NCBI RefSeq assembly: GCF_000473365.1 | Contig: NZ_KI421517.1 | Span: forward strand, 4,538,296-4,602,295 | Source: Adhaeribacter aquaticus DSM 16391 | GTDB taxonomy: Bacteria; Bacteroidota; Bacteroidia; Cytophagales; Hymenobacteraceae | Direction: 5' to 3' | Length of the DNA: 64,000 nt | Shown here: positions 4,100-42,469 of the stretch, in pieces | How positions within the stretch are numbered: position 1 is the stretch's first letter | Layout: each line of letters opens with the position of its first letter | Notes under the pieces: generated by a model | The model's input: only the letters and a program-made list of their open reading frames with translations | Databases searched by the model: none | Told to the model about the DNA's origin: nothing | Made by a program: the position numbers and the translations under genes

Positions 4100-4131
4100 T
4101 TTGCATCCTTCTGAATTGCACCTTAACTTTG
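4100..4131 (+). promoter_or_regulatory. Promoter of guaA; predicts a leaderless mRNA
   Basis: TTTG (4100-4103), a 20-nt spacer and TAACTTTG (4124-4131) match the Bacteroidota -33/-7 consensus. The -7 box ends only three bases before ATG (4135), so transcription should begin at or next to the start codon. This also argues against the TTG at 4129 as start, since it lies inside the -7 box. Confidence 0.72.
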
Positions 4132-4134
4132 CAC

Positions 4135-5664
4135 ATGCCAGAAAAAATAATAATTCTCGATTTTGGCTCGCAATATACACAACTTATTGCCCGTCGGGTT
4201 CGCGAGCTAAACGTTTACTGTGAAATCCATCCATTTAATAAAGTACCAGAGCTCAGTCCTGAGGTAAAAGGTCTTATTCTATCCGGCAGTCCCTGTTCTG
4301 TTCGGGACGAAGATCATCCTAACCCAGATATAAGCCAGTACCAGAACCAGGTACCTGTTCTTGGTGTTTGTTATGGTGCCCAATTATTAGCCCATGAAAA
4401 TGGTGGCGAAGTTTTACCATCTACCATTCGGGAGTATGGCCGGGCTTTATTAAGTGAGGTTCATGCTACCAACCGGTTAATGAAAGAAATAACCATTGGT
4501 TCGCAGGTTTGGATGTCGCATGGTGATACCATTAAACACGTACCAGAAAATTTTGAAGTTATAGCCAGTACCGAATCCGTTGCGGTAGCAGCTTATAAAG
4601 TACAAGGTCAGGAAACTTATGGTATCCAGTTTCATCCGGAAGTAACGCACTCCTCAGAAGGGAAAACCATTTTACGTAACTTTGTAGTACACATTTGTGA
4701 GTGCAGCCAGGACTGGACGCCGGATCAGTTTATTGAAACTACGGTTACCGAACTTCAAGATTTGATTGGTGACGATAAAGTAGTACTGGGATTATCCGGA
4801 GGTGTTGATTCGTCGGTAGCGGCCATGCTTATTCATCAGGCTATTGGCAAAAACCTATATTGTATTTTTGTTGACAATGGTTTGTTGCGAAAGAATGAAT
4901 TTGAATCGGTTCTGGAGTCGTACAAACACATGGGCTTAAATGTTAAAGGTGTTGATGCCAAGGACCGGTTTTATACAGCTCTTGCTGGAATATCAGACCC
5001 GGAATTAAAAAGGAAAGCCATCGGTCGTGTATTTATTGAAGTGTTCGACGACGAATCGCACCAGATAACTGATGTAAAGTGGTTGGCACAAGGCACCATT
5101 TATCCGGATGTAATTGAATCTGTATCGGTAAAAGGACCATCTGCCACTATAAAATCGCACCATAACGTAGGTGGTTTACCTGACTTTATGAAGCTTAAAA
5201 TAGTTGAGCCACTAAAAGCCTTATTTAAGGATGAAGTTCGTCTGGTAGGTAAAACCTTACACATTGATGAAAACATTATTGGGCGGCACCCTTTCCCTGG
5301 CCCAGGTTTAGCCATCCGCATTCTCGGCGACATTACCCCGCAAAAGGTTTCTATTTTACAGCAGGTGGATGATATCTTTATTCAGGGCTTACGTAATAAT
5401 GGCTTATACAACCAAGTTTGGCAAGCAGGAGCTATTTTGTTGCCGGTACAATCGGTTGGTGTAATGGGAGATGAACGTACTTATGAAAACGTGGTAGCCT
5501 TACGGGCTGTTTCCAGCGTAGATGGCATGACAGCCGATTGGGTACATTTACCGTATGAGTTTTTGGCTAATATCTCCAATGAAATTATAAACAAAGTAAA
5601 AGGTGTAAACCGCGTGGTGTATGACATTAGCTCTAAACCACCAGCCACCATTGAATGGGAATAA
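4135..5664 (+). CDS. guaA: GMP synthase (glutamine-hydrolysing)
   Basis: A 509-residue enzyme converting XMP, glutamine and ATP to GMP. The N-terminal class I glutamine amidotransferase domain (about 1-190) has the nucleophile Cys79 in GVCYGAQ and the His-Glu pair in QFHPEVTHS. The ATP-pyrophosphatase domain has the P-loop SGGVDSS near residue 225. The C-terminal dimerisation domain ends with PATIEWE, the usual GuaA terminus. Length is slightly shorter than E. coli GuaA (525). I start at ATG 4135 rather than the upstream in-frame TTG at 4129, because the TTG lies in the promoter -7 box. The stop overlaps the next gene by 10 bp, suggesting cotranscription. Confidence 0.95.
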
Positions 5665-33350: not shown

Positions 33351-34145
33351 TTATTGAGCTACCGTTTCTGAGGCTTTTACTTCTCTTATATACTTCTCAA
33401 TATTCTGTTCCAGGTTTTCCTTTTCCTGAATAACTTTAATAAATGCACTGCCTATAATGGCTCCTTCGGCATATTTACAGGCCAACTCAAAAGAGCCGCG
33501 GTCAGAAATACCAAAACCAATAAGCTTTGGGTTTTGCAGCTTTAAGCTTTGTATTCGCTCAAAATACTGAATTTGCTTTTCATCGCCGCCTACTTTATTA
33601 CCGGTAGTACTCGCCGAAGAAACCATGTAAATAAACGAATTGGTCAGGTTATCTATTTTGCGAATTCGTTCTTCCGGCGTTTGTGGCGTAATCAGAAATA
33701 TGACACTTAGGTTATGCCGCTCAAAAAACGGACGGTATAATTCTTCGTAATCATGTAAAGGCAAATCGGGCAAAATCAAACCGTCTACCCCTACCCGCGA
33801 AGCTTCGGCACAAAACCGCTCAATGCCATACTGCATGACCGGGTTTAAATATCCCATTAAAATAATAGGTACTTCTACTTCGTTCCGAACCTCTTCTAAT
33901 TGTAACAATAGCTTTCTGATGGACATGCCATTTTTTAAAGCTACTGTATTACTAGCTTGTATAGTTGGCCCATCCGCCATTGGATCGGAATAAGGCATAC
34001 CAATCTCAATCATATCGGCGCCTGATTTTTCCAACGTTTTCAAGATAGTACCGGTACTTTCTAACTCCGGGAAACCAGCAGTAAAATATACATTCAGAAG
34101 GTTTTCTTTTTTTTCCTGAAACAGGCGGGTTAGTCTATTTTCCAT
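33351..34145 (-). CDS. trpA: Tryptophan synthase alpha chain
   Basis: A 264-residue TIM-barrel enzyme that cleaves indole-3-glycerol phosphate to indole, which passes to TrpB. The catalytic Glu is in [23 protein letters not shown] (about residues 45-65), which also holds the catalytic Asp. Others are [28 protein letters not shown] and [10 protein letters not shown] in place of the usual GFGIS. Last gene of trpEGDCFBA; its start overlaps the trpB end by 11 bp, so translation is coupled as usual for the alpha2-beta2 complex. Confidence 0.96.
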
Positions 34146-35337
34146 GAGGTACGTCGATATTATCTAAATAATTAATGATTGTGGCTAAATCCTTATCTCC
34201 ACGGCCAGACAGATTTAATACTACTACATCAGTTGGCTTCAGCTCCATTTTATTTAAGGCATATAAAGCATGGGATGATTCAATAGCCGGAATAATGCCT
34301 TCCATTCTGCTGCACATTACCAATGCTTCCATGGCTTCATCATCGGTAACACTGTATACTTTTGCCCGTCCGCTTTCAATTAAATGGGCATGTAACGGTC
34401 CAATACCCGGATAATCTAATCCGGCTGATATAGAATGTGGCTCTACAATCTGGCCGTCTTCGGTTTGCATTAACAAAGTTTTACTTCCGTGAATGATACC
34501 CAAAGTACCTAAAACCGAAGTAGCCGCTGAAAAGCCAGTATCAATGCCATGACCAGCTGCTTCTACTGCAATCAGGTTAACTTCTTCTTCATCTAAAAAA
34601 TGATAGTACGCACCAGCAGCATTACTTCCCCCGCCTACACACGCTACTACATAATCAGGTTTATCAGTTCCTTCTTTTTCCAGCAGTTGCGCTTTTATTT
34701 CTTCGCTGATAATTGCCTGGAAACGGGCTACCATATCGGGATATGGATGCGGACCTACAACCGACCCAATAATATAATGCGTATCTACCGGGTTACTAAT
34801 CCAATCACGAATCGCTTCATTGGTAGCATCTTTCAGAGTCTGACTTCCGGAAGTAACCGGAACAACCGTAGCTCCTAATAATTGCATCCGGGAAACATTA
34901 GGTTTTTGCCGCTCTGTATCTATTTTACCCATATATACCACACACTCCAAGCCCACCAAGGCACAAACAGTAGCTGTGGCTACGCCGTGCTGTCCGGCTC
35001 CGGTTTCGGCTATAATGCGGGTTTTACCCATGCGCTTGGCCAATAAAATCTGGCCAATGGTGTTATTGATCTTATGAGCGCCGGTATGAGCCAAATCTTC
35101 CCGCTTCAGGTAAATTTTAGCGCCAAATTTTTCAGATAAACGCTTAGCTAAATATAAAGGTGTGGGGCGGCCAACGTAATCACGAAGTAAATTATTAAAT
35201 TCTTCCTGAAAGGATGGATCGTAAATAATATTCAGGTATTGCTGGCGTAGTTCTTCTACCGCCGGGTAAAGCATTTCGGGAATATAAGCGCCACCAAAAT
35301 TTCCGTAGTAGCCTCGCTCATCAACTGCATATTTCAT
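34135..35337 (-). CDS. trpB: Tryptophan synthase beta chain
   Basis: A 400-residue PLP enzyme joining indole and serine to make tryptophan. The PLP lysine is in [18 protein letters not shown] (around residue 92). The phosphate-binding loop is [10 protein letters not shown] and the catalytic Glu region [15 protein letters not shown]. The start [22 protein letters not shown] is typical of TrpB1, the form that pairs with TrpA. Length is normal. It overlaps trpA by 11 bp and lies 80 bp after trpF. Confidence 0.97.
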
Positions 35338-35417
35338 TTTTTCTGTTTCTAGATGTTAAACACTAGATTATATTTTATAATTGGGTAAATGTTAATTCCT
35401 TTTGCCTTTGAATAACC

Positions 35418-36095
35418 TTACCTCTTTTTCTTATATTTAAAGCCTCTGATTCCTTTAAAAAACGCCTCTACCTTAGAATTATCTTTTAATGCCGGGCTTA
35501 TTTCAAACCGACTATTAATGTCCAGTCCTTTCAGCCCCGGTAGACTTAATTCTTTAATTTGATCTACATGTTCCAGATCAATGCCCCCGCTTAAAAAATA
35601 AGGTGTATCATAGGTATACTTTTTCAGGATGTCCCAATTAAATGTAGTGCCATTTCCACCGTATTGCTGCCCTTTGGTATCAAACAAGTAATAGTCGCAG
35701 GTTCCTTCAAACGCTTTCAGTTTTTCAAAATCGAAAGTATCATCCACTGAAAAAGCTTTAAACACAAGAAGCCCACTGGCCTTCAAATGGTTACATAATT
35801 CCGGGCTTTCCTCGCCATGTAACTGGACTGCATTTAAGTTATACTTTTGAACAGCATGTTGAATATTTCCCAACGTTTCATTAACAAAAACACCCACTTT
35901 TTTGGTACTGGCCGGAAATTTTTGCATTAAATTCAGGTCCAATTCCTCCCCTACAAACCGGGCAGATTTAGGATAAAATATAAACCCCATCCAATCAGGT
36001 TGCAAGGCTAATATTTCCTGCATATTAGGTGCCGAGCGCATGCCACAAACTTTAATTTGTAACGGCTGAAGACTTTCCTGATTATGGCTATTCAC
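35418..36095 (-). CDS. trpF: Phosphoribosylanthranilate isomerase
   Basis: A 225-residue TIM-barrel isomerase converting PRA to CdRP. The signature LQIKVCGMRSAPN has the catalytic Cys at about residue 17, and the general-acid Asp is in YYLFDTKGQQYGGNGTTFNW. PYFLSGGIDLEHV and LKGLDINSRFEISPALKD are the phosphate-binding and C-terminal blocks. The start is GTG (36095); no ATG lies between it and the conserved core, so a non-ATG start is likely. Ends in a basic KYKKKR tail. Thirteen bp after trpC. Confidence 0.95.
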   Translation of the reverse strand: MNSHNQESLQPLQIKVCGMRSAPNMQEILALQPDWMGFIFYPKSARFVGEELDLNLMQKFPASTKKVGVFVNETLGNIQHAVQKYNLNAVQLHGEESPELCNHLKASGLLVFKAFSVDDTFDFEKLKAFEGTCDYYLFDTKGQQYGGNGTTFNWDILKKYTYDTPYFLSGGIDLEHVDQIKELSLPGLKGLDINSRFEISPALKDNSKVEAFFKGIRGFKYKKKR

Positions 36096-36108
36096 GGGTA
36101 TTTTTATT

Positions 36109-36909
36109 TTAAGCGGTTGCTAATTGCTTTAAACTCTGAATAAAAGTAGCGCAGGCTTCGCCCGGATTGTTGGTTTTCATGAAGGCTTCGCCCATCAAGA
36201 ATCCCCGATAACCATAGTTTCTTAGATCCAGGATAGTTTCCGGTTTGCCGATACCACTTTCCGACACTTTTATAAAAGAATCGGGTATCAGAGAAGCTAA
36301 ATTTTTAGAAGTATCGATTGTTTGGGAAAAATCTTTCAAATTCCGGTTATTCACCCCTATTGCATCCACCTGGTCAGTTAAGGTTCTTTCCAGTTCCTCC
36401 TGATCGTGCACCTCCAGTAGAATTTGCATGCCTAACGAACGGGCAAACTTTGCAAATTTATTTACCTGATCTGCTTCCAGAATGGCTGCAATCAATAAAA
36501 TAACATCCGCTCCCATAGACTTTGCCTCAATTATCTGATATTCATCAATGATAAAATCTTTGCGTAAAATCGGGCATTGATTTGCATGGCGGGCTGTTGT
36601 CAGGTCTTCATAAGTACCTCCAAAAAATTGCTCATCCGTCAAAACGGAAAGCGCTGAAGCACCGGCTTGTACATATCCGCTGGTAGTTTGGGCTACCGAG
36701 GCTTCTCCATTTATTACTCCTAAGGAAGGCGACTTTCGCTTAAATTCTGCAATAATGCCATTTAAATCATCGCGTAGTAAATAGTCTTTAAAAGAAAAAG
36801 GTTGTCTTTCAAAAAAAGGACTACCCTCCAAGGACTTTGTGGATATACCAGCCTTTTTATCAGCTACTTCTTTTTGCTTAACGGCAACTATTTTATCAAG
36901 AATATTCAT
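36109..36909 (-). CDS. trpC: Indole-3-glycerol phosphate synthase
   Basis: A 266-residue TIM-barrel enzyme converting CdRP to indole-3-glycerol phosphate. Diagnostic motifs are IAEFKRKSPSLGVI (catalytic Lys, about residues 52-65), VLTDEQFFGGTYEDL, CPILRKDFIIDEYQI (catalytic Lys), GVNNRNLKDF and SESGIGKPE. A stand-alone monofunctional enzyme, not fused to TrpF as in E. coli. It lies 48 bp after trpD. Confidence 0.96.
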   Translation of the reverse strand: MNILDKIVAVKQKEVADKKAGISTKSLEGSPFFERQPFSFKDYLLRDDLNGIIAEFKRKSPSLGVINGEASVAQTTSGYVQAGASALSVLTDEQFFGGTYEDLTTARHANQCPILRKDFIIDEYQIIEAKSMGADVILLIAAILEADQVNKFAKFARSLGMQILLEVHDQEELERTLTDQVDAIGVNNRNLKDFSQTIDTSKNLASLIPDSFIKVSESGIGKPETILDLRNYGYRGFLMGEAFMKTNNPGEACATFIQSLKQLATA

Positions 36910-36957
36910 TTTTTATTATAATCCTATGGCTTCAAAACCACTGGTAGTAAATTTTAT

Positions 36958-37944
36958 CTAGGCTAATAATTTTTTGAAAGATGCCAGGGCTTTCCCGGAT
37001 TCTAAAGATTCGCGGGCCGCCGCAATAGCATCCGGTATAGTTAATTTAGCATCAGAGCAGAAAATACCTAACCCGGCATTAGCCAATACAGCATTTTTCT
37101 GCGCTTCTGTACCTGTTCCTTCCAAAACATTTATAAATATTTTGGCAGCCTCTTCAATCGTATTGCCCCCTGCTAACTCTTCTGGTTTAATTAAATTAAA
37201 CCCTAAGGCTTCAGGTGTAATGATATGTTCGCCATCTGCCATTACCATTTTAAACGAACCAGTTAACGACACCTCATCATATCCATCTAATGCATGCAAA
37301 ACAATAAACCGTTTATCTGATTGCTGGTAAAGATAGGAGTACAACCGCAACAACTCCAGGTTAAACACCCCTACCATCTGGTAATTAGGCATAGCCGGAT
37401 TTACCATAGGTCCTAACATATTGAAAAAGGTTTTTAAACCTAATTCTTTCCGGATTGGTCCTACATGCCCCATAGCCGGATGAAATACCGGCGCATGTAA
37501 GAAACATATATTCGCTTCGTCCAGCTTCCGTTTTAAATAATCTGAATCATCCGTAAACTGGTAACCAAAATGCGCCATTACGTTAGATGAACCACAAATA
37601 GAGGAGACCCCGAAATTACCGTGTTTGGCTACTTTATAACCCGCTCCGGCAACTACAAAAGAAGCAATGGTAGAAATATTAAAGGTGTCTTTTCCATCGC
37701 CACCCGTGCCACACAAATCTATTACGTCATGGGTTCCTAGCTCGGGTTTTATACATAATTCCAGCATGGCATCCCGAAATCCTTCCAACTCATTGACCGT
37801 AATATTCCGCATCAGGAAAACAGTCAGAAAGGCCGCCATTTCGCTCGGATTAAACTTTCCCTGACCTAAATCCAGCAGTACCTGTTTTGCAGTTTCCTTG
37901 GTTAATGCTTTCTGCTCAAAGAGCTGCATTAATATTTGTTTCAT
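36958..37944 (-). CDS. trpD: Anthranilate phosphoribosyltransferase
   Basis: A 328-residue enzyme transferring phosphoribose from PRPP to anthranilate. PRPP-binding GTGGDGKDTFNIST (about residues 79-92), KHGNFGVSSICGSSNVMAHFG and LGPMVNPA are hallmark blocks. Not fused to TrpG; that is the separate upstream gene (18-bp gap). Length is normal for the family. Confidence 0.96.
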   Translation of the reverse strand: MKQILMQLFEQKALTKETAKQVLLDLGQGKFNPSEMAAFLTVFLMRNITVNELEGFRDAMLELCIKPELGTHDVIDLCGTGGDGKDTFNISTIASFVVAGAGYKVAKHGNFGVSSICGSSNVMAHFGYQFTDDSDYLKRKLDEANICFLHAPVFHPAMGHVGPIRKELGLKTFFNMLGPMVNPAMPNYQMVGVFNLELLRLYSYLYQQSDKRFIVLHALDGYDEVSLTGSFKMVMADGEHIITPEALGFNLIKPEELAGGNTIEEAAKIFINVLEGTGTEAQKNAVLANAGLGIFCSDAKLTIPDAIAAARESLESGKALASFKKLLA

Positions 37945-37962
37945 AGTTTTTCAGTAAGATTA

Positions 37963-38562
37963 TTAGATCCAGCTCTTTTTAGGTGTAATGCTTCCTTTTA
38001 ACCAGCTGCGCATCATAGTTTCGCCGTGTTCTGTTAAAATAGATTCCGGATGAAACTGCACTCCCTTTACATTGTATTCTTTATGGCGGAGCGCCATAAT
38101 CTGCCCTTCAGCATCTAAAGCAGTTACTTCTAAACTACTAGGCATGGATCCTGGCACTACCACCCAGGAGTGGTACCGACACGCTTTAAATTCAGCAGGA
38201 ATTCCTTTGAAAATATATTCACTTTTAGAAGTTACCCGGATTTTGGTAGCTACTCCATGTTTTGGTTCAGGTAAATTATAAAGTGTCCCGCCAAAACTTT
38301 CAGCAATAGCCTGATGCCCTAAGCAAACCCCAAATATCTTTTTGGTAGGTGCATAACGCTGAATCAACTCCGGCATGATACCCGCTTCAGAAGGCACACC
38401 CGGTCCCGGCGATAACAAAATACTATCGTATTCTTCTACCTCGTCTACCCCTATTTTATCGTTCCGGCGAATATCCATTTTGGATCCATAACCTAACTTT
38501 TTAACCAGTTGCACCAGGTTATAGGTAAACGAATCATAATTATCCAGCACTAAAATTTTCAT
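37963..38562 (-). CDS. trpG: Anthranilate synthase component II (glutamine amidotransferase)
   Basis: A 199-residue class I glutamine amidotransferase supplying ammonia to TrpE. The nucleophile is Cys80 in FGVCLGHQAIAESFGG; LDNYDSFTYNLVQ is at the start, LSPGPGVPSEAG is the oxyanion region and VQFHPESILTEHG holds the catalytic His/Glu. Could in principle also serve aminodeoxychorismate synthase (PabA), but its place between trpE and trpD favours TrpG. Confidence 0.95.
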   Translation of the reverse strand: MKILVLDNYDSFTYNLVQLVKKLGYGSKMDIRRNDKIGVDEVEEYDSILLSPGPGVPSEAGIMPELIQRYAPTKKIFGVCLGHQAIAESFGGTLYNLPEPKHGVATKIRVTSKSEYIFKGIPAEFKACRYHSWVVVPGSMPSSLEVTALDAEGQIMALRHKEYNVKGVQFHPESILTEHGETMMRSWLKGSITPKKSWI

Positions 38563-38606
38563 CTTCTAATCTATCTAAAAAGCTTTCGCTTATTTGTTCT
38601 AATTTA

Positions 38607-40019
38607 TTATAATTCGGAGGCCCGCTCTAACGCTTTGCGCAAAGCAGCCAATTTGTGATGCACCTCATTTAGTTCCGATTCCATAACTGATTTGGCTACC
38701 ACCCCGGCACCAGCCTGGTAATGTAACTGGTTCTGCACACTCAGAAAAGATCGGATCATGATAGCATGGTTAAAATCACCGTTAAAACCGATAAACCCGA
38801 TACAACCGCCATAATAACCACGGCCGGTTGGTTCTAGTTCATCAATAATGCTCATGGCTTTATATTTGGGAGCTCCCGACAAAGTACCAGCCGGGAAAGT
38901 ATCAGCAACCATTAACATGGGGGCTACCTCTTTAGACCGGATACTGGTAACTTTTGATACTAAGTGAATAACGTGCGAGTAATACTGAACCTCTTTAAAC
39001 ACCTCTACTTTTACCTCGTCGCCATGACGGCCCAGATCGTTACGAGCTAAATCTACCAACATTACATGCTCTGCATTCTCTTTCGGATCATCATAAAGCT
39101 TACGTGCTAATTCGGCATCTGAGGCATCATTACCTGTACGGCGGAAGGTACCGGCAATTGGGAAAATACTGGCTTTGTTTCCTTTCAAAAGTATTTGGGC
39201 TTCCGGCGAAGATCCAAATATCTTGAAATTACCATAATCAAAATAAAATAAATAAGGAGAAGGATTAATGGACCGCAACGCCCGGTACACATTAAATTCA
39301 TCGCCTTTAAAACCTTGCGAGAATTTACGGGATAATACTATCTGAAAAACGTTACCGAGCATACAGTGCTGCTGTCCTTCTGCCAACACTTTCAGGAATT
39401 CTTCATCTGTAAAATTAGAGGTTTCGTCGTGATTGGCCGTAAACGTAAATGATGGAATATTTTTGTTCCGGATAAGTGCTTCCAGGTTAGCAATGCCAGA
39501 TCCCGCATTTTCTTCGTTTATGCTGTGTTCAAAAATATACAGATCATCTTTAAAATGATCGAATACAATAATGTACCGGTATAAACTATACAGAATTTCT
39601 GGCAAGCCCGGATGAGCTGTTTCTTTGGGTCTAAAGGCAATATCCTCAAAATAGGTTACCGCATCATAAGCCATGTACCCAAATAAACCATTATTAATAA
39701 AATTAAACTCATTCTGCTTTACATAAAAACAGTTTATAAACTGCTGTAAATGCTTAATGGCGTCTCTCCTGTCTTCCAGATGAAACTGCTGAGTTGTACC
39801 ATCCGGGTAATACTGGCTTATTTGCTGATCCTTAAGTTCAAATCCGCCCATCGGCTCACAACAAATATAGGAGAAGCTGTTTTCGTTGCCGTGGTAGTCC
39901 GAACTTTCCAGCAAAATACAGTTCCTGAACTTATCGCGCAGTTGTAAATAAATACCCACCGGGGTAACCGTATCGGCTAACAGGTGTTTATGGACGGAAT
40001 GTAACTTAAACTTATTCAT
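38607..40019 (-). CDS. trpE: Anthranilate synthase component I
   Basis: A 470-residue enzyme making anthranilate from chorismate with ammonia from TrpG. The N-terminal LLESSDYHGNENSFSYI (about residues 35-52) corresponds to the tryptophan feedback-binding site. The chorismate-binding domain (about 205-465) carries FQIVLSRKFSQGF, PSPYLFYFDYGNFKIFGSSPEAQ, PIAGTFRRTG, HVMLVDLARNDLGR, DTFPAGTLSGAPKYKAM and the final GAGVVAKSVMESELNEVHHK. First structural gene of trpEGDCFBA, 116 nt after the leader peptide stop, so under predicted attenuation control. Confidence 0.96.
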   Translation of the reverse strand: MNKFKLHSVHKHLLADTVTPVGIYLQLRDKFRNCILLESSDYHGNENSFSYICCEPMGGFELKDQQISQYYPDGTTQQFHLEDRRDAIKHLQQFINCFYVKQNEFNFINNGLFGYMAYDAVTYFEDIAFRPKETAHPGLPEILYSLYRYIIVFDHFKDDLYIFEHSINEENAGSGIANLEALIRNKNIPSFTFTANHDETSNFTDEEFLKVLAEGQQHCMLGNVFQIVLSRKFSQGFKGDEFNVYRALRSINPSPYLFYFDYGNFKIFGSSPEAQILLKGNKASIFPIAGTFRRTGNDASDAELARKLYDDPKENAEHVMLVDLARNDLGRHGDEVKVEVFKEVQYYSHVIHLVSKVTSIRSKEVAPMLMVADTFPAGTLSGAPKYKAMSIIDELEPTGRGYYGGCIGFIGFNGDFNHAIMIRSFLSVQNQLHYQAGAGVVAKSVMESELNEVHHKLAALRKALERASEL

Positions 40020-40063
40020 TAAAAATATGAAAAATATTTAAAAATCAGATGCTTATAAACGAC

Positions 40064-40090
40064 GAAAGCCCAAGTGAACTTGGGCTTTCC
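40064..40090 (-). terminator. Attenuator hairpin in the trp leader
   Basis: On the minus strand, GAAAGCCCAAG and CTTGGGCTTTC form an 11-bp perfect stem around TTCA, followed by GTCGTTTAT. It lies between the trp leader peptide and trpE. The U-tract is weaker than in the gene-end terminators here. A hairpin at 40125-40152 (CACCTTTTAG with CTAAAGGCGTG, overlapping the end of the leader ORF) could be the pause structure. I could not derive a clear antiterminator pairing. Confidence 0.78.
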
Positions 40091-40134
40091 ATTATACTTT
40101 ATGGTAAAATTACAGATATGCCGCGTTCACGCCT

Positions 40135-40188
40135 TTAGTTTTCTAAAAGGTGCCACCAACCAGCAATATGTAATCTATTTGTCGTCAT
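40135..40188 (-). CDS. trpL: trp operon leader peptide (17 aa, tandem Trp)
   Basis: A minus-strand reading frame of 17 codons plus TAA, peptide MTTNRLHIAGWWHLLEN, with two adjacent TGG codons at positions 11 and 12. It sits directly downstream of a consensus promoter and upstream of a terminator-like hairpin and trpE. This is the classical layout of ribosome-mediated attenuation: when charged tRNA-Trp is scarce, the ribosome stalls at the Trp pair and lets transcription continue into trpE. Tandem Trp in so short a frame at this position is very unlikely by chance. The predicted transcript start lies only about four bases before the AUG, so the leader would be read almost as a leaderless message. 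Confidence 0.85.
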   Translation of the reverse strand: MTTNRLHIAGWWHLLEN

Positions 40189-40195
40189 TGTGCTG

Positions 40196-40226
40196 CAAAT
40201 ATATAAGCAGTTTTTATTTATCCAAA
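40196..40226 (-). promoter_or_regulatory. Promoter of the trp operon
   Basis: On the minus strand, TTTG (40223-40226), a 19-nt spacer and TATATTTG (40196-40203) match the Bacteroidota consensus exactly. The -7 box ends seven bases before the trpL AUG. Confidence 0.82.
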
Positions 40227-40593
40227 ATATTTGTTCCCAAAAATTAAATCTGCGTTAAAAGCTTATATTTATACTACCCTAACGGGTACTTAGGTATAAT
40301 TACTTTATTTTACTTTTACAGCTATTTCTATTAAAAGACCTTACAACCTGAATAAAGAACATTATTTTATAAGTATTTTTACACTTCCTTCAGGTAATGT
40401 ACCGTATCAAATAATTTTATCTAGTTTATTACATTTTTATTATTAAAATATTATTTTTTTCAATAAGTTTACAACTCTATAGCAAATGGCTAACAATATT
40501 TTTAATATCAGGCCGTAATATAGGTGCTTATTTATAATTTCAAGAACGAGAATTTATTTTAAACTGATCTACCAAATACTTTAGCATTTACTT
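40227..40593. other. AT-rich intergenic region between trp promoter and BadF-type gene
   Basis: About 370 bp, very AT-rich, with no open frame or RNA gene I can support. It must contain the promoter of the plus-strand gene at 40594, but no clean TAnnTTTG box is visible near it. Confidence 0.4.
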
Positions 40594-41451
40594 ATGATTA
40601 TTATTGCTGATGGCGGCTCAACTAAAACTAGTTGGTGTTTGATTACCGAATCGAATTCTAAAGTTTATTTTAATACGGAAGGATATAATCCCTATTTCGT
40701 GGATACGTCTACTGTTATTGCATCGCTGCAAAAAAACTTACCTGAAAACTTGAATAAAGAAGAAATTTCAGAAGTTTATTATTATGGTGCCGGTTGCTCT
40801 ACACCAGAAAATAATGAAACAATAGCAGCAGCCATGCGGGCTGTTTTTGTAAATTCCAAAGTAAAAGTAGGTCATGATTTATTAGCAGCTGCCCGGGCTT
40901 TACTAGGAGTTGATGCTGGCTTTGCCGCTATATTAGGAACTGGTACCAATACCTGCCTTTACGACGGTAAAGATGTAACCCTGAATATTGATTCTTTAGG
41001 TTATTTTTTAGGTGATGAAGGCAGTGGCTCATTTTTAGGTAAACGTTTATTACGTGATTATATGCGCGGCTATTTGCCAGAAGGCATGTCAAAAATTTTC
41101 AAAGAAACCTACGAACTGAGCAACGAAGATATCTTTGATCATTTATACAACCGGCCTTTACCTAACCGCTTTTTGGCCAGCTTTAGCAAATTCTTGTACG
41201 AGAACAACAATTTTTCTTACTCACGGGAAGTGGTAAAAGAATCATTTGCGACTTTTTTCACTAATTTAGTTTGCCATTATCCAAGCTACCAAGAGCATAC
41301 TTTTAACTGTGTGGGTTCTGTGGCTTATAATTTCCGGGACGTTTTAGAAGAAGTAGCCCAGGAAAATAACATGGAAATGGGTACTATTATTCGCTCTCCA
41401 ATAGATAACTTAGTTTATTACCACCTGGTTTTAGCTAAAGGCGATATTTAA
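40594..41451 (+). CDS. BadF/BadG/BcrA/BcrD ATPase-family kinase (N-acetylglucosamine kinase-like)
   Basis: A 285-residue ASKHA-fold protein. Phosphate-1 loop ADGGSTKTSW is at residues 5-14, the phosphate-2 region GFAAILGTGTNTCLY near 110-125, followed by LGYFLGDEGSGSFLGKRLLRDYM, and an adenosine motif near VGSVAYNF. The length and DGGSTKT/GDEGSG motifs fit the N-acetylglucosamine/glucosamine kinase-like branch common in Bacteroidota, often linked to cell-wall sugar recycling. Substrate is not provable from sequence. Ends in a very strong terminator; monocistronic. Confidence 0.85.
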   Translation: MIIIADGGSTKTSWCLITESNSKVYFNTEGYNPYFVDTSTVIASLQKNLPENLNKEEISEVYYYGAGCSTPENNETIAAAMRAVFVNSKVKVGHDLLAAARALLGVDAGFAAILGTGTNTCLYDGKDVTLNIDSLGYFLGDEGSGSFLGKRLLRDYMRGYLPEGMSKIFKETYELSNEDIFDHLYNRPLPNRFLASFSKFLYENNNFSYSREVVKESFATFFTNLVCHYPSYQEHTFNCVGSVAYNFRDVLEEVAQENNMEMGTIIRSPIDNLVYYHLVLAKGDI

Positions 41452-41460
41452 TATTGTTTA

Positions 41461-41508
41461 CCAAATAAAAAAGGCTTCCGCCATTAGGCAGAAGCCTTTT
41501 TTATTTGG
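41461..41508 (+). terminator. Intrinsic terminator with 18-bp perfect stem
   Basis: CCAAATAAAAAAGGCTTC (41461-41478) is perfectly complementary to 41491-41508, with a 12-nt loop; the symmetric A/T runs make it potentially bidirectional. Confidence 0.9.
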
Positions 41509-41563
41509 TGCAACCACTAACTTTTTTCTTTTCTGCGTAAGAATCAGCTCCCAACCCTGAAAA

Positions 41564-42469
41564 ATGACAATATTTAGGAATACGCTGTTACTTTATTTAT
41601 TCCTGATTCCGCAGTTGCTATTTGCTCAGGAGTTGGCAAAGCCCGAACCCGACACCACTCTCCTGAAAAACCGCCTGATTTGGGGTTCAGCAGCATTAGC
41701 AACTGGCTATACCACCTCCTTAATTGTTTTAAGCAATACCTGGTACAGTAAAGCCGACAGAACCTCCTTCCATTTTTTTAATGATAATCATGAGTGGAAG
41801 CAAATGGATAAAATTGGCCATTTTTGGGGTGCCTTTCATCAAAGCCGGTTGGGAGTAGACTTTCTAAAATCTGCCAATGTTCCTGAAAAGAAAGCTATTA
41901 TCTGGGGCGGCCTGCTAGGCGTTGTTTTGCAATCGCCAATTGAATTATTGGATGGATATGTAGCCAGTTATGGCGCCTCCCTCGGCGACTTAGGAGCTAA
42001 TGCGCTGGGATCTGCCGCCGTTATTGCCCAACAATTAAAATGGGGACAGTTACGTGTTATTCCTAAATACTCCTTCCGGCCCACTCCTTTTGCTGCCAAC
42101 CGACCTAACGTTTTGGGAAGTACTTTTTCTGAACAATTATTAAAAGATTACAACGGCCAAACCTATTGGTTATCAGCGGATATTTCTGCTTTCTTACCCA
42201 AAACCTCCCGCTACCCTAAGTGGCTGAATATTGCTTTTGGCTACGGGGCTAACGGAATGGTACATGCCCACGACCTTACAAATCAACAAGCTGGCTACAC
42301 TAGCTACCGCCAATATTACCTGGCCCTGGATTTAAATCTACTGAACATAAAAACACAAAATAAATTTTTAAAAGGCGTGTTTTACGTATTGAGTGTGGTA
42401 CATTTGCCGGCCCCAGCCGTAGAATATAACCGGCACCAGGGAATTAGAATACACCCAATTTATTTTTAA
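41564..42469 (+). CDS. DUF2279 family exported protein
   Basis: A 301-residue protein with a signal peptide (MTIFRNTLLLYLFLIPQLLFAQ). The body contains W-rich and hydrophobic segments: RLIWGSAALATGYTTSLIVLSNTWY, FFNDNHEWKQMDKIGHFWGAFHQSR, IIWGGLLGVVLQSPIELLDGYVASYGASLGDLGANALGS. The pattern DKIGH...WGG...E..DG....GAS.GD..AN..GS is diagnostic of DUF2279/YfiM-like membrane proteins. Function unknown; probably outer membrane or periplasmic. Followed after 22 bp by the DUF2027-Smr gene. Confidence 0.82.
   Translation: MTIFRNTLLLYLFLIPQLLFAQELAKPEPDTTLLKNRLIWGSAALATGYTTSLIVLSNTWYSKADRTSFHFFNDNHEWKQMDKIGHFWGAFHQSRLGVDFLKSANVPEKKAIIWGGLLGVVLQSPIELLDGYVASYGASLGDLGANALGSAAVIAQQLKWGQLRVIPKYSFRPTPFAANRPNVLGSTFSEQLLKDYNGQTYWLSADISAFLPKTSRYPKWLNIAFGYGANGMVHAHDLTNQQAGYTSYRQYYLALDLNLLNIKTQNKFLKGVFYVLSVVHLPAPAVEYNRHQGIRIHPIYF

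Follow-up and report, generated by a model that had tools for sequence, protein, structure and literature searches.

A probable ribosome-mediated trp attenuator with a predicted near-leaderless leader peptide in Adhaeribacter aquaticus and related Bacteroidia

Results

Organization of the trp locus

The DNA analysed here (hereafter the window) is the whole stretch of 64,000 nucleotides from Adhaeribacter aquaticus DSM 16391, whose minus strand carries a tryptophan biosynthesis operon in the order trpE-G-D-C-F-B-A (Table 1). Upstream of trpE we found a short frame with two consecutive Trp codons and, downstream of it, an 11-bp hairpin, both as the original prediction had described them, including the 17 codons and the TGG-TGG at codons 11 and 12. 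The distance from the leader stop to the trpE ATG (40019) is 115 nt instead of the 116 nt then claimed, with the hairpin beginning 45 nt past the stop. Folding of the 141-nt leader resulted in a free energy of −44.8 kcal/mol (z −4.5), a value equalled by none of 200 shuffles. In the free fold, the bases right after the hairpin pair with roughly codons 1 to 3 of the leader frame, a modelled pairing that looks accidental.

A search with the Rfam model Trp_leader (RF00513) gave 23.4 bits at the site (E 0.15), under the gathering score of 41, and no T-box family was present among the 19 Rfam matches obtained up to E 10 in the region 38000-42000. On the plus strand, a divergent gene (40594-41451, start MIIIADGGSTKTSW) lies about 405 nt from the leader; it showed no NCBIfam match at 1e-10, and the start of its product resembles a sugar-kinase-fold ATPase. 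A strong bidirectional terminator-like hairpin, with A- and T-runs, is located at 41465-41504 and attracts many sub-threshold Rfam matches.

Table 1. Positions in the window of the trp operon and of the predicted elements of its leader region.
Feature	Position	Strand	Remarks
Candidate −33 element TTTG	40226..40223	minus	Context ATTTTGGATAAA kept in L084-L086
−7 box TATATTTG (consensus TAnnTTTG)	40203..40196	minus	7 nt between box end and leader AUG
Predicted transcription start	40190..40191	minus	From published box-to-start spacing of 4 or 5 nt
Leader peptide frame MTTNRLHIAGWWHLLEN, then stop	40188..40135	minus	17 codons, Trp at codons 11-12
TGGTGG	40158..40153	minus	Tandem Trp pair of the leader frame (codons 11-12)
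Segment 1, GUU (Gly10/Trp11 codons) and CAC (His13 codon)	40160..40158 and 40152..40150	minus	Pairs with segment 2 in the MFE fold
Segment 2, GUGAAC, candidate antiterminator strand	40130..40125	minus	Starts 4 nt past the leader stop
Terminator hairpin GAAAGCCCAAG-UUCA-CUUGGGCUUUC	40089..40064	minus	11 bp, predicted; followed by tail GTCGTTTA
Segment 3, GUUCAC	40079..40074	minus	Terminator loop UUCA plus closing G-C pair; partner of segment 2
trpE	40019..38607	minus	First structural gene; best NCBIfam TIGR00564, E 1.8e-121, under that model's curated cut-off
trpG, trpD, trpC, trpF, trpB, trpA	38562..33351	minus	trpF models match under curated cut-offs

Conservation of the tandem-Trp leader

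The conservation check proposed in the original prediction was run on the trpE upstream regions of the window and of 80 Bacteroidota loci. A short tandem-Trp frame was found in 77 of the 81 regions, in a sample biased to near kin since the relatives were the best 80 of 588 confirmed TrpE matches; the frame was missing in L013, L022, L028 and the truncated L039. The levels expected by chance were much lower: such a frame occurred in 59 of 1,620 first-order Markov surrogates of the 81 regions, in 25 of 2,000 surrogates made from the region of the window alone, and in 51 of 1,320 603-nt tiles of its genome. Within the genus, the leader was present in 8 of 8 genomes. The peptide varies outside the tandem Trp codons, and the Trp pair is kept.

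An even class-level sample, in which TrpE was detected at E 1e-60 in 49 of 149 genomes, provided 48 upstream regions, 47 of them long enough for analysis. A frame with adjacent Trp codons (WW) was identified by script in 31 of the 47 regions, vs 29 of 900 surrogates. After one doubtful frame without a plausible ATG (L246) had been dropped and five WxW frames added, 35 of the 47 carried an accepted Trp leader (WW or WxW), and 12 did not. Altogether, conservation of the Trp codons and the hairpin holds within the genus and extends widely into the family and the class, the opposite of the refuting outcome (loss of the Trp codons among close relatives) named in the original prediction. A short frame with tandem codons ahead of its cognate operon, one of the marks of a ribosome-mediated attenuator, is thus present at this locus both as a frame and in its conservation.

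Two serial Trp leader peptides precede trpE in 15 of 15 loci from the genus containing Rufibacter (L091-L105), and also in the named Rufibacter loci L005 and L006, to which the leaders of L098 and L099 are identical, and in L019. Visual inspection of the 45 nt preceding the second Rufibacter leader revealed no −7 box. In Xanthocytophaga flavus (L017, 1388-1461), the Trp attenuator is separated from trpE by a tRNA-Trp (CCA) gene, which it may then control as well.

Antiterminator pairing

The antiterminator, whose pairing had been described in the original prediction as not obvious, could be located by sequence match and folding. Segment 2 (GUGAAC) is complementary to the GUUCAC sequence of the terminator loop and its closing pair and, in the free MFE fold, it is held by the Gly10/Trp11 (GUU) and His13 (CAC) codons. 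The fold therefore contains a candidate segment that would exclude the terminator and is held by leader codons. The six bases of segment 2 are identical in L004 and in L084-L090. The pairing in the window consists of 6 bp only (shuffle p 0.03).

Other lineages use different sequences for the corresponding pairing. GGGUGAA/UUCACCC is the class of the first Rufibacter leader, and GAACAGC/GCUGUUC that of the second one, of some Pontibacter leaders and of other Cytophagales. In Flavobacteriaceae the class is GUCGUGA/UCACGAC, with the UGA stop of the leader inside the match in 15 of 23 cases; many Sphingobacteriaceae carry GCCGG/CCGGC, Algoriphagus GGGAAA/UUUCCC, and Daejeonella CAGGGC/GCCCUG.

For a quantitative comparison, 106 leaders were kept. 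Those without a terminator call or with a score under 33 were excluded, and spurious WW frames (as in L017, L030, L031, L035, L042 and L094) were removed by score or by hand. Seven leaders were omitted after inspection (L010, L011, L012, L059, L069, L076, L083) and a further seven as near-duplicates (L084, L085, L098, L099, L104, L108, L110). In 39 of the 106 leaders, hand-picked at one to three per genus and not independent because 13 of them are from Flavobacteriaceae, the score of the best run between segment 2 and the terminator was 16.5 vs a permuted mean of 12.7, and the duplex energy was −14.5 vs −10.9; neither value was reached in any of 20,000 permutations. A further matrix of 11 classes was chosen post hoc, with the results already seen. 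These data show the parts of the attenuator, their conservation, and a complementarity between segment 2 and the terminator that survives changes of sequence among lineages.

It could be argued that the hairpin is a constitutive terminator or a processing element, and that the short frame is translated without any sensing of Trp. The short antiterminator of the window would fit this idea. On the other hand, the tandem Trp codons are retained while the rest of the peptide varies, and complementarity persists among lineages, so we regard this explanation as very improbable.

The best run touched the terminator loop in 88 of the 106 leaders, a count that includes 14 weak runs from Hymenobacter. 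It covered the loop and the 3′ arm in 21 of 23 Flavobacteriaceae and in 12 of 13 first Rufibacter leaders, and the 5′ arm and the loop in 13 of 14 second Rufibacter leaders. In Sphingobacteriaceae the match was mainly with the 5′ arm (5′ arm alone in 13 of 18), and capture of the loop is therefore not general. As a group, the 14 Hymenobacter leaders paired no better than their shuffles (mean p 0.61), and the scoring of contiguous runs detected no antiterminator in most of them; pairing was also weak in some Pontibacter and several Sphingobacteriaceae leaders. The layout had originally been equated exactly with that of Proteobacteria. The parts of a trp attenuator are indeed present but, in the window as in many relatives, the antiterminator strand is complementary to the loop of the terminator and not mainly to its 5′ arm.

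Folding of the leader in three ribosome states

Transcripts ending just past the terminator loop were folded free, with a ribosome on the Trp codons, or with a ribosome at the stop. In the window, the expected number of pairs between the upstream RNA and the terminator top or loop, counting any pairs of this kind, was 9.6 in the stalled state, 4.9 in the free state and 3.5 in the stop state. The stalled value exceeded the free one in 85 of the 106 leaders and the stop value in all 106, the latter result being partly built in because the stop state masks segment 2. When the full-length leader was folded, the probability of the terminator in the window was 1.00 in all three states, with mean values of 0.97, 0.96 and 0.99 for the set of leaders. 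Equilibrium folding of the full leader, with mean terminator probabilities of 0.96-0.99 in every state, was consequently rejected as evidence of switching. The near-certainty of the terminator in all full-length states implies that the switch must be kinetic, decided during transcription.

The terminator tail

An intrinsic terminator is predicted between the leader and the first gene, followed in the window by a weak U-tract (GTCGTTTA). In seven loci of the same genus (L084-L090), the hairpin is followed by six or more consecutive T, a run absent from positions 40063-40056 of the window. Given this poor tail, the window's own attenuator may be leaky, or even decaying in the present strain, with loss of the U-tract weakening termination while the leader and the pairing remain. 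This is a minor possibility in our judgment: the 11-bp stem, the loop, the Trp pair and GUGAAC are all intact, the tail of L036 (TGTCGTTT) resembles that of the window, and the hairpin is still listed in the terminator scan despite its weak tail. In L087-L090, the gap between leader and trpE is about 115-225 bases longer than in L084 and L085; the extra stretch in L090, the one examined among these four, contained no clear gene.

Promoter spacing and the predicted near-leaderless start

The original prediction placed a promoter seven bases before the leader AUG. A −7 box lies at that distance, and the upstream TTTG at −33 is only a candidate element. In Flavobacterium psychrophilum the motif TAnnTTTG occupies positions −12 to −5 (PMC9723704), and in probable promoters of F. 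johnsoniae the box and the start are separated by 4 or 5 nt (PMC6847099). The transcription start, proposed at 40192 with a near-zero 5′ UTR, would be moved by these published spacings to 40191 or 40190, giving a predicted UTR of 3 or 2 nt.

The spacing between box and AUG was measured in 99 leaders (110 loci minus seven near-duplicates and four without leader), with ATG starts preferred over GTG or TTG. Ninety of them had an exact box and seven a relaxed one, and none was found for L080 and L082. For exact boxes, the spacing was ≤9 nt in 51 of 90 and ≤10 nt in 54 of 90, and it was never below 4 nt. Similar values were obtained in the class-wide sample, where 18 of 26 exact boxes were at 4-10 nt and none closer than 4 nt. 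The minimum over the 116 exact-box leaders (90 + 26) was hence 4 nt, a distance at which the AUG would coincide with +1; such a limit is expected when the AUG cannot precede the transcription start. From the sequence data, with spacings most often of 4-10 nt, the proposal of a near-leaderless start is supported.

According to our own grouping, the spacing was exactly 4 nt in 14 of 14 Rufibacter leaders (measured to the AUG of the first of the two serial leaders), 7 nt in 7 of 7 leaders of the window's genus group, 5-6 nt in nine Flavobacteriaceae leaders, and 5-10 nt in Sphingobacteriaceae, with one at 13; in Hymenobacter, Pontibacter and other Flavobacteriaceae the nearest box was mostly 12-52 nt away. 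The exact box at the identical 7-nt spacing is found in L004 and L086-L090. The control consisted of 263 long frames from the genome of the window, taken from crude gene calls and each preceded by ≥60 nt of sequence. They contained 31 exact boxes within 72 nt, three of them at 4-10 nt and five at ≤9 nt. The difference between the class-wide sample and this control at 4-10 nt (18/26 vs 3/31) had a Fisher p of 4.5e-6, which is only approximate because the relatives are not independent. Short leaders are a minority in published data: 3.7% of 5′ UTRs are reported as <10 nt in B. thetaiotaomicron, 5.5% as leaderless in F. psychrophilum (PMC9723704), and in F. johnsoniae leaders of ≤10 nt make up 13% among transcripts that have a probable promoter (PMC6847099).

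Upstream of hisG, 21 of the 30 regions examined (from 50 matches) contained a short frame rich in His and preceded by an exact box, under a loose rule (at least four His in 12-50 amino acids) applied without a chance control. The spacing was 8-10 nt in 17 of the 21 by script, and in 18 when the nearer box of L135 is counted, where the script picked a farther box and the nearer one, at 10 nt, was seen by eye. These His leaders (L134-L162) often end in HHSS, and the genome of the window carries one of them (L135, about 1130-1270). Scanning of the fetched loci for leaders behind an exact −7 box revealed one possible ilv leader upstream of ilvD (L181, spacing of 18 nt) and no thr leader upstream of homoserine dehydrogenase genes. 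Elsewhere in the window, on the plus strand, TAACTTTG (4124-4137) stops 3 nt short of the ATG of a frame resembling GMP synthase, which may mark a further leaderless start or reflect a miscalled one.

An alternative for the promoter is that the same Trp attenuator is expressed with a longer, ordinary 5′ UTR from a real promoter further upstream, TATATTTG being a chance match. TAnnTTTG is a short motif, the nearest box lies 12-52 nt away in Hymenobacter, Pontibacter and some Flavobacteriaceae leaders, and leaders longer than 10 nt are found in 87% of those F. johnsoniae transcripts that have a probable promoter (PMC6847099). Against this, the box and its 7-nt spacing are constant in all seven leaders of the genus group, the distribution of exact-box spacings has a lower edge at 4 nt, and most his leaders are at 8-10 nt. 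We thus consider a longer UTR distinctly unlikely.

Discussion

The evidence described above leads us to propose, with a probability of about 0.83, that the trp operon of A. aquaticus is controlled by a ribosome-mediated attenuator whose leader mRNA starts 2-3 nt before the leader AUG. Through this leader device the cell very probably senses a shortage of tryptophan. From its parts we infer a transcription start, a mode of ribosome loading, stalling and a termination switch, which would operate as follows. The ribosome would load at the 5′ end, the 2-3 nt ahead of the AUG being too few for a Shine-Dalgarno sequence or an A-rich leader. With ample Trp-tRNA it would reach the stop codon and cover GUGAAC, and the terminator would form before trpE. 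When Trp-tRNA is scarce, the ribosome would stall at codons 11-12, melting the hold of the Gly10/Trp11 and His13 codons on GUGAAC. The freed GUGAAC could then capture the emerging GUUCAC of the terminator loop, and RNA polymerase would continue into trpEGDCFBA.

A broader reading for the Bacteroidia, which we see as evenly balanced, is that amino-acid attenuators would commonly be read by ribosomes loading at a bare 5′ end, with promoters set so that the leader AUG is 0-6 nt from +1, apart from the A-rich leader initiation of the phylum's ordinary mRNAs. According to this reading, the stretch around the leader stop would be, in many lineages, an antiterminator capturing the terminator loop, its sequence replaced repeatedly while the pairing is kept. 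In several Cytophagales the captured stretch would extend into the 5′ arm; in Flavobacteriaceae, as in the first Rufibacter leader, it would run into the 3′ arm, and the match in Sphingobacteriaceae is mainly with the 5′ arm. Rufibacter would have two Trp attenuators in series, the first predicted to be fully leaderless and the second internal.

Bacteroidota mRNAs are described as having no Shine-Dalgarno sequence and leaders mostly longer than 10 nt (PMC6847099), and a leader peptide at the 5′ end therefore raises a concrete question: does attenuation need leaderless initiation to keep ribosome and polymerase in step? The versions found in the window, in Flavobacteriaceae and in Rufibacter make this dependence directly testable. 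The analysis also yields many short leader genes, of which the one in the window is missed by the Rfam Trp_leader model, and an antiterminator layout that fits a new RNA family model.

Comparison with known systems

The trp leader of E. coli, the usual textbook example of attenuation, contains tandem Trp codons, competing hairpins and a stop codon near segment 2, and its ribosome is loaded by a Shine-Dalgarno sequence. The window resembles it in the short tandem-Trp leader peptide, the terminator before trpE, the competing hairpins and the stop near segment 2. It differs in having no room for a Shine-Dalgarno sequence, with a predicted UTR of 2-3 nt, and in an antiterminator that matches the terminator loop. 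Vitreschak 2004 is said to mention Bacteroidetes.

A leader RNA beginning at the initiation codon is described elsewhere. The attenuator RNA of Sinorhizobium meliloti trpL (rnTrpL) begins at the ATG of a Trp leader frame (PMC7298713); compared by its description, this system is alphaproteobacterial and has a UTR of 0, vs the predicted 2-3 nt of the window. Likewise, TrpL1 of Streptomyces lividans is a Trp leader peptide before trpE with three Trp codons, described as leaderless (PMC8079986), but actinobacterial; it too was compared by description. Closer to the window, "strong clues" for attenuation at amino-acid operons are reported in F. psychrophilum, with 5′ elements of pheA and hisG named, but the main text of that study makes no mention of trpE, and neither a leaderless leader nor an antiterminator was seen there (PMC9723704). 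A survey of 2010 stated that, to its authors' knowledge, leader-peptide systems had been unshown beyond Proteobacteria and Actinobacteria before its Firmicutes case (PMC2965389). Among the open-access papers searched, judged mostly from listings, none was found describing a trp leader peptide, leaderless leader or leader antiterminator for Bacteroidota. The tandem attenuators of Salmonella mgtCBR share with the double Trp leader of Rufibacter the presence of two serial leader frames, although the operons are different (PMC3641672).

Classical ribosome-mediated trp attenuation and leaderless trp leaders in other phyla are therefore already known. The present analysis adds an extent that spans the class, an antiterminator aimed mostly at the loop whose sequence has repeatedly been replaced, a tendency towards near-leaderless starts, and two serial Trp leaders in the genus containing Rufibacter.
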